A stretch of DNA of 64,000 nucleotides, from positions 1 to 64,000 of IMG/VR virus record IMGVR_UViG_3300021368_000007, one strand, 5' to 3'. A program made the translations under genes and the position numbers. Shown piece after piece: positions 1,260 through 62,357 of the stretch (positions are counted from its first letter, which is position 1; every line of letters begins with the position of its first letter). Under the pieces are notes generated by a model, which made no database searches, was not told where the DNA came from, and saw nothing but the letters and a program-made list of their open reading frames with translations. The DNA comes from a virus.

Positions 1260-1520
1260 TTAGGGAACAATTTTGTCAATTAGAGTCAATTCTTCCTGTT
1301 TAATACTATTATTCAGGAATTTACCAACTGATTCTTTACTATCAATGACTTTTTGTAAGTTATTATCGAAATTATCAACTTTTCGTTGATACTTATAGAT
1401 TGTATTGGATGATTTGAATTGTATTTCAATATATTCAGTTCTTAATACAATTCTATTAACCATTGAAGATTCTAAATCTCTATAATCTTTGAGAATTTGA
1501 GGAAATTGAGATTCTGTCAT
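1260..1520 (-). CDS. KTSC-domain-like protein (86 aa)
   Basis: The pattern of Ser-Ser near residue 18, a central beta-hairpin (YIEIQFKSSNTIYKYQRKV) and a later S-x-G-KFLNNSI segment matches the KTSC domain, a small beta-rich fold often found in phage and mobile-element proteins and sometimes suggested to bind nucleic acid. The first KTSC residue is not preserved. The gene is strikingly A/T-rich in codon use compared with its neighbours, which suggests recent acquisition. Role unknown. Confidence 0.55.
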   Translation of the reverse strand: MTESQFPQILKDYRDLESSMVNRIVLRTEYIEIQFKSSNTIYKYQRKVDNFDNNLQKVIDSKESVGKFLNNSIKQEELTLIDKIVP

Positions 1521-1539
1521 TTTAGATTAAAGTTTAAAT

Positions 1540-1612
1540 CTTAAATTTTGAAGTTTTTAAGATTTTGTGTTTTTTAAGTTTTTGAACTTTTTGACTTTTT
1601 GAGAATTCTTCA
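1540..1612. repeat. A/T-tract low-complexity repeat
   Basis: Between the genes at 1260-1520 and 1864-2097 there is a 343-bp stretch without a convincing gene. Its left part is built from degenerate repeats of AAGTTTTT/GAACTTTTT spaced about 10-13 bp, giving phased A/T tracts of the kind that cause bending or easy melting. A 61-codon reading frame crosses it, but it encodes only a biased K/S-rich tail. Confidence 0.6.
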
Positions 1613-1794
1613 AAAGTGCTGTTTTTGCCCCCTGAAGACCTCTTAATTATACCAGCGACCCCGTGACCCTCGGCGGGGGTTTGTGCCAGTTTCTCGGGTG
1701 TCATAGAGGGCATTGACAATCGATCGGAGGCGTGCTAAGACAACAAGACCTCCGCACATTATCACACATTACCTATGTTTTTTAAACCATTTAG

Positions 1795-1827
1795 TTTTCC
1801 ACAGGTTTTTCCACAATGTTTTCCACA
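1795..1827 (+). other. Three phased DnaA-box-like repeats (candidate origin/regulatory site)
   Basis: TTTTCCACA occurs three times as perfect direct repeats at 1795-1803, 1807-1815 and 1819-1827, exactly 12 bp apart. TTTTCCACA is the DnaA-box form described for Synechococcus oriC. With the A/T-tract region about 200 bp away, the layout resembles a small replication origin (boxes plus an unwinding element), or a host-DnaA-regulated site. The repeats are seen directly; the function is inferred. Confidence 0.55.
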
Positions 1828-1863: not shown

Positions 1864-2097
1864 CTAGAGAGTGCCTTTGCGGACTATCCCCAGTATCTGT
1901 GGAGATACTACCAATTTCTTTTCTTTTAGTTCTACTACCTCTTGTCCTCTCTTGATCATCTTCATCATTGCTTCTTGTGCAGATTCGAGTTGGAAATACA
2001 CAGCATGTTGTAACGTTGGTTCAGTGTGTCCATACAATGTGTGCATGTATGATACCACGTAATAGTTTGGTTTAAATTTTGGTGATCTAAAAGTCAT
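1864..2097 (-). CDS. Hypothetical protein (77 aa)
   Basis: Starts MTFRSPKFKPNYYVVSYM and contains an ALESAQEAMMKM-like helix (residues about 37-50) and a basic middle. No domain recognised. Its start overlaps the end of the upstream gene (2087-2314) by 11 bp, so it is probably the last cistron of the small operon initiated from the promoter at 2768-2796. It is followed by the DnaA-box region. Confidence 0.6.
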   Translation of the reverse strand: MTFRSPKFKPNYYVVSYMHTLYGHTEPTLQHAVYFQLESAQEAMMKMIKRGQEVVELKEKKLVVSPQILGIVRKGTL

Positions 2098-35500: not shown

Positions 35501-38500
35501 GTTGAAAACGTAAGGAGATGCGGACTCAACAGAGTCAATTTCCGCAAGAACTACCGCGTTTGTGCTGACTCCGCCGACTTCACCAGAGAAATAGGTTTGA
35601 CCAGAGACAAGTCCGAGGGATGCTGCGGTATTATTGTATACTTCATACTCAAATACCTTAGGATTAACCTGATCAATCTTGGTAACCTTCCAGGTTCCGT
35701 TGATTTCATCAGATAGACCAGAGTTAATGATCGCAACATACTGACCTTCAAAGTAACCATGGTCAATCTTGGTGGTTACTGTGATGTTAGTGTAACCAAA
35801 TTGCGCGGTAAACGCAACTGCACCACTACCACTGATTGCTTGGTTCAGTGTTACTGTGTTACCAGAGATCGATTCGATTCTAGTATTAGGATTAACAACA
35901 ATTCCTGAGGCACTGCTTTGAATTTCTGCACCAATATTGAGTTTGCTGGTGTCAGAAACGTTTGTAAGAGTATCAGTGCTGTTAGCAGTTGCGGTAAATG
36001 TTGTCTGATCCTCAATCTTGATACTCTCGATAGTTCTACTATCAGACAGAGGACCAACGATTCTGTTTTCTTGAACCAGTGCTTCCAGTCCACCATCATC
36101 AATAGTTGGTTGGAACTGCTGGAATGCCTTACCTACCTTTTCATAGTAGTTGTCAAGATCAGATCTATCTGCATACGTCATGATGCAGATCTTATGGTGA
36201 GAATACTCAGGAATTGCTAGTTGAGTAGATCCCTTCTTATTGTAGACTTTACCAACACCTGCGGTTGCATCATACAGAGGAGATTGTGCAGAGAGGTCAC
36301 CATCCTTGATAGTGAACTGCCACAGATAGCAACCACCAGTCAGGTTAAAGATAGAAGTTCTTTCCTGTGTTGTATCAGCAGGATCAGGAACATACAGAGG
36401 ACGAACGACTGTACGACGGAGGTCATAACCAATCAGTGAACAACCTCTAGGAACGATACAACCACCAGTTGCAGCGTTGAACTTATAGAGAACGTTGTCA
36501 GGGTTTGCTAGGTCAACAATAGAGTTGTCCTGCCACTCTTCCAGTGCTCTGTTGTAGTTAAAGGAAGGAAGAACACCTGTGACTTTGATATCTGCTATGT
36601 CATCTAGGTTACCAACTTCAATAACAGAGGTAAGAATATTGATTAGAGTATCAATAGTTTGCTGGACATCCTGACATGTTTCGATATTACCAGATCCAGT
36701 GTAAGGAATAACTGGAGTGTTGGCACCAGCAACTGCAGGACCAGGAGAAATAGTCAGGTCCTTAGCAAATAGTCTGTTAGTTACTGCTCTCTTTGCCCAA
36801 TATGCAATACCATTGAATGCAGTGATGGATTCTGCTTCTTCACCTAGGACACCATTAGCAATAGGATTGCCGAAGCGATCAAAGTATGCTTTAGCGTTGG
36901 TGATTGTGTTTGCGTTGCCATCAGTTGCGAGGTCATCGATCAGACCATCAACAATGAAACCAGAGTCACGCTTACACTTAGCATGTCCTGCAGATACCAG
37001 AGTAGAAGTGGTTTCGTCAGGAAGTTGACTTAGGTTCTCATCTGTTACAGATGTAATAATAATTGCACCCAGAGTATCGATAGCAGACTGAACGTCAGCA
37101 CATGCTGCAGGGTTACCAGACTGAAGATTCTCCTGTGGGTTGTTGCTATTGCCGTAAATAGCATCACCAGGGGTGATTGTAATATCTTTGAAGTATAGTT
37201 GATTAGTAACTGCCTTCTTCATCTCTGCAATCGCAAAGTTAAATGCAGTTAGAGATTCAGCAGTTTCACCTTGAAGACCATTTGCAACCCAGTTGTTGCC
37301 AGTGTCATCAAAGTAGTTCTGTGCTAGTTTTCTGGTGTATACATTACCACCCGCTTCATGAACGTCAAGGGAGATTGCATCGATGAATTGTCCGATGTCA
37401 CGCTTACACTTAATTTCACCAGCAGGTAGGATAGTTGAAGTTGTCTCAGCAGGAAGGACGTTACTAAGTAGGAATGTTCCATTGTTTGCTGCTAGGTCAG
37501 AATTATCAAAAATACTATCGACAATAGCATATAGCGTGTCGATCATATTTTGGATGTCAGTACATGCAGTAGGATCAGTATTACTTACTGTACCATTGCC
37601 ATCACCATAAACTGCTTCACCAGGAGTTACAGTATTATCTGTGTACTCGCTACCAGGAGAAGATGTAGAAGCAAAGTTGTTGGTGATCGCCAACTTCATC
37701 AACTCAACTGCTTTGGAGAATGCAGTTAGAGAAGAAGTTTCTTCACCACGAAGACCCGTGGTTCCATCATGAATAACACTATTGTCAAGTGCGCTTACAA
37801 ATGCATGAGTTGTTTGTGGTTCATGCTTGATTGCCTGTGCAGTTGCACCGATGAAGTAGTGAGTAGAAGTATCAGAAGAGGTGCCCACATTAATAGTGAA
37901 AGTGCCATCTTGACGCTCAACACCATTAGCAGTCGCACTGACGAAGGTGTGGGCACCAGTGTACTCAGAAGGACCTACATTAATTTCAAACGTGTTGGTA
38001 GTTACGTTTTGAATTTCCATCCAACGTCCAGATGGATAATCAACGCCTGGGCGAGGATAAGACTTGGTTTCAGTGTCACCATCTAGGACACAGGTGTAAG
38101 ACAGAGAATTATCTGCAACCTTAATGTAATCACCATTGCTAAATCCGTGGTTTGCAATGGTAAGTGTTACAACACCAGATGCTGCATCATAAGGAGCATC
38201 GGTTACTGTGTGGGAAGTAGAACCAACTGCAGCGATTGCAATAGACTGACCTGCATATGGGTCAACTCCAGGACGTGGATAGGTGTGCTGAGTTGCACGA
38301 TTATCGAGGTCACATTCAAAAGTGAAGGAGTTGTCTTCTAGAACAACGCCGCGGCCAACACCTAGACCATGTTGACCAACAGTGACAACCATGTCACCTG
38401 TTGATGGATTGTAATCTACAGCAGATGGTTGGAAATACTTGTTAGGACCAGATGGACCAGCGTTAAAAGTAATAGTGTTAGCAGTAGTTGCAGTTACACT

Positions 38501-61445: not shown

Positions 61446-61690
61446 ACTAGCATCAACTTAGCTCGACTTGTTTTTTTAATGAAGTTTAACTTCTGTGCAT
61501 CATACTTAAGTTTTTCCTTAAGTGGTTTGCTAATCAGTTTAGAACATGATTCAATTTCAATCTCGTTCATTTCGCAGTAGTGAATGACTGCATCAATGTA
61601 ATTCATGTCAGAATTATTTAACACTAGTTTTTCCACATCCTGCGAGAATCTCGCAGCAGTCATAAAGTTATCCTCCAGATTTTTTGCCAT
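61442..61690 (-). CDS. gp33: gp33 late-promoter transcription accessory protein (82 aa)
   Basis: T4 gp33 links the sliding clamp to RNA polymerase at late promoters. The family pattern is visible: NFMTAARFSQDVEKLVLNNS, then YIDAVIHYCEMNEIEIESCS and LISKPLKEKLKYDAQKLNFI, ending TSRAKLMLV with the hydrophobic tail used for clamp contact. Length is that of cyanophage gp33 (shorter than T4's 112). It explains the NATAAATA late promoters upstream of the tail genes. Overlaps the exonuclease gene by 23 bp. Confidence 0.75.
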   Translation of the reverse strand: MAKNLEDNFMTAARFSQDVEKLVLNNSDMNYIDAVIHYCEMNEIEIESCSKLISKPLKEKLKYDAQKLNFIKKTSRAKLMLV

Positions 61691-62357
61691 ATTTCTCTTG
61701 GTATTCGGTGATGTACTCTTGAAGTCTCAAGAAGTATTCCTTCTTGGGAGTCACTACTGAAACTTGAACATCACTATTCTCACAAGCAACAATTGTTACT
61801 AGCTTCTTCACTGAAATGCCATACAATTCTTGCAAGCAACATGCATAAGCAGTCTCTTGCACGTAGTAATCATATAACCACGCTTCTTTCTTTTGTTCAG
61901 CAGATGTTTTGAAATCAATAATTGCGAGTTCTCCGTCATACTCTGCTATGCAGTCCACTCGTCCTGCAACCTTAAGGAAGTCAGAATATAACGCCGCTTC
62001 TTGTAGATATATTTTATTTATCTTATTAAGAATATGCTTGCTGGAGTTAAACATAATCCAGGGAAGAGGCATGTCCTTATACTTCTTGGTGTCCAACTCA
62101 TTGTTGATGTAGTCTTCTACCAATTTGTGATAACGAGTACCTCTTCCAGCAGCGCGGGTTGAAGTTGCTTGTGCTTTTTCTTTTCCAACTCTTGCTCTCC
62201 ATTTAGCAAGTGACTTCTGCTTCTTGGAGTTGTTACTGATCACTGTTGTGATAGACGGATACTGATTCCCACTAGGAGTGAGATAGTATCTTTTCCCATC
62301 AATCATTTCAGCATTCATTTCAATGGGGTCCAACCCAACATGATCAAAGATGTGCAT
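61668..62357 (-). CDS. PD-(D/E)XK exonuclease (229 aa)
   Basis: Nuclease of the PD-(D/E)XK superfamily, like MGME1 and RecB nuclease domains. GRGTRYHKLVEDYI gives the N-terminal helix motif; GRVDCIAEYDGELAIIDFKT gives the catalytic D...D-F-K (ELAIIDFKTS), and YYVQETAYACCLQELYG is the QxxxY motif. Cyanophages commonly carry such an exonuclease near gp32 and phoH, probably in recombination or degradation of host DNA. Stop and start overlap phoH (ATG shared at 62357). Confidence 0.82.
   Translation of the reverse strand: MHIFDHVGLDPIEMNAEMIDGKRYYLTPSGNQYPSITTVISNNSKKQKSLAKWRARVGKEKAQATSTRAAGRGTRYHKLVEDYINNELDTKKYKDMPLPWIMFNSSKHILNKINKIYLQEAALYSDFLKVAGRVDCIAEYDGELAIIDFKTSAEQKKEAWLYDYYVQETAYACCLQELYGISVKKLVTIVACENSDVQVSVVTPKKEYFLRLQEYITEYQEKYGKKSGG

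Follow-up and report, generated by a model that had tools for sequence, protein, structure and literature searches.

The window analyzed here, the whole stretch of 64,000 nucleotides, comes from an IMG/VR virus record of 70.3 kb. Since its closest named genome is that of Synechococcus phage Sf-CH11 (95% identity across the gap described below) and an ORF near this gap matches Gp96 of the Kyanoviridae, the window is assigned to a T4-like cyanophage. Between two minus-strand ORFs (1260-1520 and 1864-2097) lies a gap of 343 bp (1521-1863), in which a direct sequence search confirmed the three perfect repeats of the original prediction: TTTTCCACA occurs in three exact copies on the plus strand (1795-1803, 1807-1815 and 1819-1827) with a period of exactly 12 bp. 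The features of the locus are collected in Table 1.

Table 1. Features in and around the gap (window coordinates).
Feature	Position	Strand	Basis or remark
Flanking ORF, 86 aa, without Pfam match	1260..1520	-	Pfam search
A+T maximum of the window, with T-tracts at intervals of 7-9 bp	1519..1609	.	A+T scan
Conserved pair GTGCCA...GTGTCA, just upstream of the promoter-like motif	1683..1703	+	Consensus of 45 box-bearing elements; most relatives
Promoter-like TTGACA-N17-TAAGAC, pointing toward the boxes, antisense to the flanking genes	1713..1741	+	Conservation; weak -10
A/T-rich block CCTATGTTTTTTAAACCATTTAG, immediately preceding the boxes; candidate site of unwinding	1772..1794	+	Conserved; co-occurs with boxes and promoter-like motif in an independent scan
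Array of putative DnaA boxes, TTTTCCACA x3, 12-bp period	1795..1827	+	Conserved; in relatives, the third box may be inverted or TTATCCACA variants occur
Flanking ORF, 77 aa, without Pfam match	1864..2097	-	Pfam search

According to shuffles, 1.2 exact copies of TTTTCCACA are expected per 64-kb window, and three copies within 33 bp thus exclude a chance origin of the triple. A genome scan found no other array, the only further exact copy in the window being located at 61629, within an ORF, and copies with at most one mismatch are depleted in the window (11 observed versus 27.6 expected). A coding explanation of the 12-bp period was rejected, as the repeats share no open frame, the third box is often inverted in relatives and inverted pairs lie 13, 14, 23 or 24 bp apart. 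An RNA element was also discarded, no Rfam match near the gathering score being obtained.

Regarding the identity of these sites, most cyanobacteria use TTTTCCACA as their DnaA box, which has been studied in Cyanothece with the purified domain IV of DnaA (PMC4674748). The array forms a cluster of at least three close sites matching TTTTCCACA or TTWTNCACA, and the canonical DnaA-box form TTATCCACA occurs at the equivalent place in phages S-SKS1 and S-BM3. A scan of 84,980 prokaryote genomes for the exact 12-bp triple yielded 41 sites. By title, five belong to cyanobacteria, and three of them are at dnaN: a pair lies in the dnaN-dnaA gap and the third adjoins dnaN near a record end. Two further sites of the 41, non-cyanobacterial, also adjoin dnaA or dnaN homologues. 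The original assignment to cyanobacterial DnaA boxes is thus upheld by the literature consensus, by the same triple beside dnaN or dnaA and by the TTATCCACA forms, and we judge on these sequence matches that the phage boxes are very probably host DnaA sites. In small cyanobacterial genomes whose first contig opens just upstream of dnaN (probably picocyanobacteria), this region holds mostly ATTTCCACA, GTTTCCACA or TTTTCCCCA beside ACTACT trios, with TTTTCCACA being occasional, and several genomes of 2.5-2.8 Mb have none within 700 bp. Considering the mixed site forms at dnaN of the small genomes, the phage boxes fit the general cyanobacterial consensus and are not the copy of one picocyanobacterial oriC. 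Any DnaA acting at the boxes would come from the host, since 14 of the phage genomes encode no DnaA homologue above the family cut-off. In Sf-CH11, the Bac_DnaA AAA domain has a match below the threshold (16.6 bits, E 7.8e-4) at 143829-144107, in a 341-aa frame that probably encodes another AAA+ protein. Several IMG/VR loci apparently unrelated to the phage element (L005, L010, L012, L016, L024 and L031) contain 3-5 copies of TTTTCCACA, also on a 12-bp period.

Conservation in related phages, on which the original prediction partly depended, was found to be extensive: the array belongs to an element kept in 19 of the 21 complete cyanomyovirus records, 17 of which have the boxes. Its order is a promoter-like TTGAC-N17-TAAGMC, followed by CCTATnTTTTTTAAnnCATTT and then by 2-4 boxes, which in box-bearing elements start 72-146 bp past the start of the -35 hexamer, downstream of the promoter-like motif. 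Conservation of this motif runs through GCTAAGACAAC (1734-1744) in the window. A consensus promoter scan of the window omits the motif, its -10 hexamer being weak, and we infer promoter activity of 1713-1741. Of 57 forward pairs of neighboring boxes, 52 have the 12-bp distance, and 100 non-redundant elements, a partly ascertained set since the boxes had led to some of its loci, hold 128 exact boxes versus 24 one-mismatch 9-mers. The third box is inverted in S-CAM3, S-PM2, S-RIM32 and S-CREM1; S-SKS1 (Llyrvirus) has one TTTTCCACA and two TTATCCACA with 21-bp spacing, and S-BM3 has TTATCCACA; the second hexamer of the promoter-like motif is TAGANT or TAGAAC in S-H38, S-CREM1, S-SM2, S-BM3 and S-SKS1; and the A/T block stands after the boxes, not before them, in S-BM3, S-SM2 and S-SKS1. 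In S-SKS1 (NC_020851), about 4-5 head-to-tail copies of GAAGGTTTATAAGAGTATTAGA occupy the ~100 bp that immediately precede 151414, where they separate the promoter-like motif from the boxes. In S-PM2 (AJ630128; locus L044, 6031-7950), tRNA genes are annotated over the element and overlap CDSs as well; ARAGORN finds no tRNA there and the annotation looks misplaced.

The place of the element, taken from relatives as the record of the window starts before gene 25, is constant. Its position is about 59.6 kb in Sf-CH11, 19.25 kb in S-PM2 (AJ630128) and 52.57-52.70 kb in Syn9. Gene 25 (PF04965) lies 1.6-9.5 kb from the element in 19 of 19 cases and on the same side each time, the element being upstream, and in all 19 the promoter-like motif is directed away from gene 25, against the genes; gene 6 comes after gene 25 in the cyanophage records examined. 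The annotation of phage T4 puts oriE upstream of gene 6, at a distance of 1.7 kb, and gives it a primer RNA that is complementary to the transcript of gene 5; this origin combines an early promoter with evenly spaced 12-nt repeats of unproven role (PMC3016281). A T4-oriE-like placement with an antisense priming direction is thus shared by the 19 elements. The genes flanking the element vary among relatives and the element stays. P-SSM2 and P-SSM4 seem to lack it, as it was not found near gene 25 with relaxed patterns. Over the 21 genomes, all 17 exact-box clusters are within 1.2 kb of the element. A second, intergenic pair of exact boxes is located ~0.6-1 kb from the main array in S-RIM32 (61859-61880), S-CREM1 (88401-88432) and ACG-2014d (37690-37709).

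Such tight and specific clusters, with the second pair within about 1 kb in the latter three genomes, could be decoys by which the amplified phage genome titrates DnaA, pulling it off the host oriC and stopping host replication. However, most genomes have only 2-3 clustered boxes, and a fixed place, an adjoining promoter and an A/T block are all conserved yet unnecessary for a decoy, making this function highly improbable.

Two scans of IMG/VR were run without the boxes in the query, one by the A/T block and one by the promoter. With the A/T block, exact boxes were present in 34 of 84 matches, and the promoter motif was found in 33 of these 34, the exception being cut off upstream, versus 1 of the 50 box-less matches. 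Of the 99 distinct sites obtained with the promoter, 40 have exact boxes downstream; among 1,762 control pieces from the same loci, 9 do. At the 59 promoter-anchored sites without exact boxes, other repeats often stand instead, the commonest being TATTGAGAA palindromes such as those of S-RSM4, whose whole genome contains no TTTTCCACA; in P-HM1, the promoter and the A/T block are present and the boxes absent. These box-less elements with other repeats indicate that the promoter and the A/T block are the constant part of the element and the DnaA boxes one of several site types, and the boxes look swappable. The substitutes seen in the box position, in S-RSM4 (locus L050, 1200-1400) as well as in many IMG/VR loci, are TATTGAGAA palindromes (ATTGATTCTCAATAG and CTTATTGAGAACC) or TTCACCGAGGGGGGAGA. 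We tentatively propose, at somewhat less than even chances, a modular origin of the oriE type with exchangeable initiator sites, in which a constant antisense promoter and A/T block would be combined with host DnaA boxes or with other repeats, and by which a T4-type phage having its own replisome would start under the host initiator.

The replacement of the boxes bears on two other explanations. Operators can likewise be replaced by other repeats, and it is conceivable that the gap is no origin and that DnaA at the boxes governs either the plus-strand antisense transcript or the leftward gene 1260-1520; the boxes adjoin the conserved promoter-like motif, and the minus strand has a promoter-like pair of its own (TTTAAA-17-GATAAT) in overlap with the A/T block. 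Nevertheless, the boxes are downstream of the plus-strand promoter, starting 72 bp or more (up to 146 bp) after the start of its -35, the minus-strand pair is not conserved in Syn1, S-RIM44 and S-CAM1, and the element persists when its flanking genes change, so that we regard such transcriptional control as unlikely. Alternatively, the presence of different repeats in the same place, such as the palindromes of S-RSM4, makes several site-specific binding proteins conceivable, and the repeats of T4 oriE show that 12-nt repeats of unproven role occur at such a place; the array could hence be an iteron-type origin or an operator that works without DnaA and is bound by a protein, encoded by the phage or not, that happens to recognize TTTTCCACA. 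Such a coincidence appears quite improbable: against it stand the exact match to the host DnaA box, the swap to TTATCCACA, itself a DnaA consensus form, and the occurrence of the identical 12-bp array at the oriC of cyanobacteria.

Regarding DNA unwinding, the left part of the gap had originally been described as phased A/T-tract repeats. Its richness in A+T was confirmed: the 70-bp maximum of A+T in the 64-kb window begins at 1519, and the genome-wide top 70 and 200 bp in A+T fall in this gap in Sf-CH11 and S-CAM3. Easily melted DNA is thus found beside the boxes in the window, Sf-CH11 and S-CAM3; at the same gap, S-PM2 is near the top of its genome, and Syn9 and ACG-2014d are not exceptional. 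Helical phasing is not supported by the spacing of the T-tracts (8, 9, 7, 9, 9 and 8 bp between 1546 and 1600, versus 10-11 bp). DnaA-trios 3' of the last box occur at most once in 44 elements and not at all in the gap of the window, host genomes showing CTACTACTA, and the A/T block and the host trios are on opposite sides of the boxes; the geometry is therefore not that of canonical unwinding. Neither dnaA nor dnaN is linked to the array, the flanking genes being small phage ORFs. GC skew, suggested in the original prediction as a signal of origin use, was computed for seven complete genomes and does not inflect at the element in any of them, a weak test in these circularly permuted phages with one-sided gene orientation.

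To our knowledge, T4-type phages do not start replication with host DnaA. An origin had originally been offered together with DnaA titration and a DnaA-controlled region, and it is favored over these two by the conservation of the element, its uniqueness in the genome, its T4-oriE-like place and the adjacent A/T-rich DNA. We consider it reasonably probable that the element is a replication origin and lean modestly toward the view that T4-like cyanophages (Kyanoviridae and Llyrvirus) have in the gap 1521-1863 a replication origin that uses host DnaA. Counting against an origin are the lack of a GC-skew inflection and of DnaA-trios, the weak -10 hexamer and the missing A+T peak of Syn9 and ACG-2014d, as well as the missing boxes in S-RSM4, in P-HM1 and at about half of the promoter-anchored sites, and the apparent absence of the whole element from P-SSM2 and P-SSM4.

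If the element is such an origin, host RNA polymerase would start, early in infection, at the plus-strand promoter, with an expected transcript start near 1748, and would run through the A/T block and the box array in the antisense direction relative to the genes. Host DnaA bound to the three boxes may help to keep the strands of the A/T-rich DNA apart, to bring in the replisome, or both. The antisense transcript could be the first primer, as at the R-loop origins of T4. Later rounds would be recombination-dependent, as in T4. Phage replication would then be tied to the host initiator DnaA. The element provides, for many isolates, a precise candidate origin of about 115 bp.

Several known systems can be compared with this element. 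The cyanobacterial oriC, located in the dnaN-dnaA gap, shares the 9-mer with the phage element and, in some cyanobacteria, also the 12-bp triple. The phage element, however, has neither dnaN nor dnaA nor DnaA-trios, its A/T block and its boxes are in the reverse arrangement, and it possesses an additional antisense promoter-like motif; it is not a copy of the bacterial oriC. Iteron plasmid and P1-type origins, which also belong to extrachromosomal replicons, place DnaA boxes beside A/T-rich DNA and need a plasmid Rep protein on their iterons, whereas no Rep protein is known for the phage element. The nearest precedent for the DnaA part is the ori region of phage lambda (pR/pO), where control of the origin involves DnaA sites placed downstream of a promoter (PMC3985674). 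Transcription across the origin and host DnaA sites downstream of the promoter are thus common to both; unlike the T4-like cyanophages, which have their own replisome and no known phage initiator for the element, lambda uses its own initiator O on iterons together with the host DnaB. Among cyanophages, a single theta origin has been predicted for Syn9 in its genome paper, as a review mentions (PMC2984593). The literature searched, mostly without subscription papers, contained no mapped origin of a T4-like cyanophage and no earlier report of this element.

The likeness to T4 oriE concerns the position upstream of gene 6 (between gene 25 and gene 6 in cyanophages), the primer RNA or promoter antisense to the genes, the early-type promoter and the repeats in a 12-nt register. 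T4 oriE depends on RepEB and an early promoter, and we know of no DnaA role reported for it. Its repeats (GTTGAAGGTAAT...) have a 24-nt period inside gene 5 and differ in sequence from TTTTCCACA, and a sequence kinship with the boxes was searched for and not found; the element is hence likened to T4 oriE with host DnaA boxes by place and direction, not by homology. It provides a second case, beside T4 oriE, for the role of short phased repeats at such origins. In T4, the 24-nt coding repeats of gene 5 (locus L285, 5403-5570) are the only repeats found near oriE, and the 12-nt iterons reported for this origin may be at least partly coding repeats.
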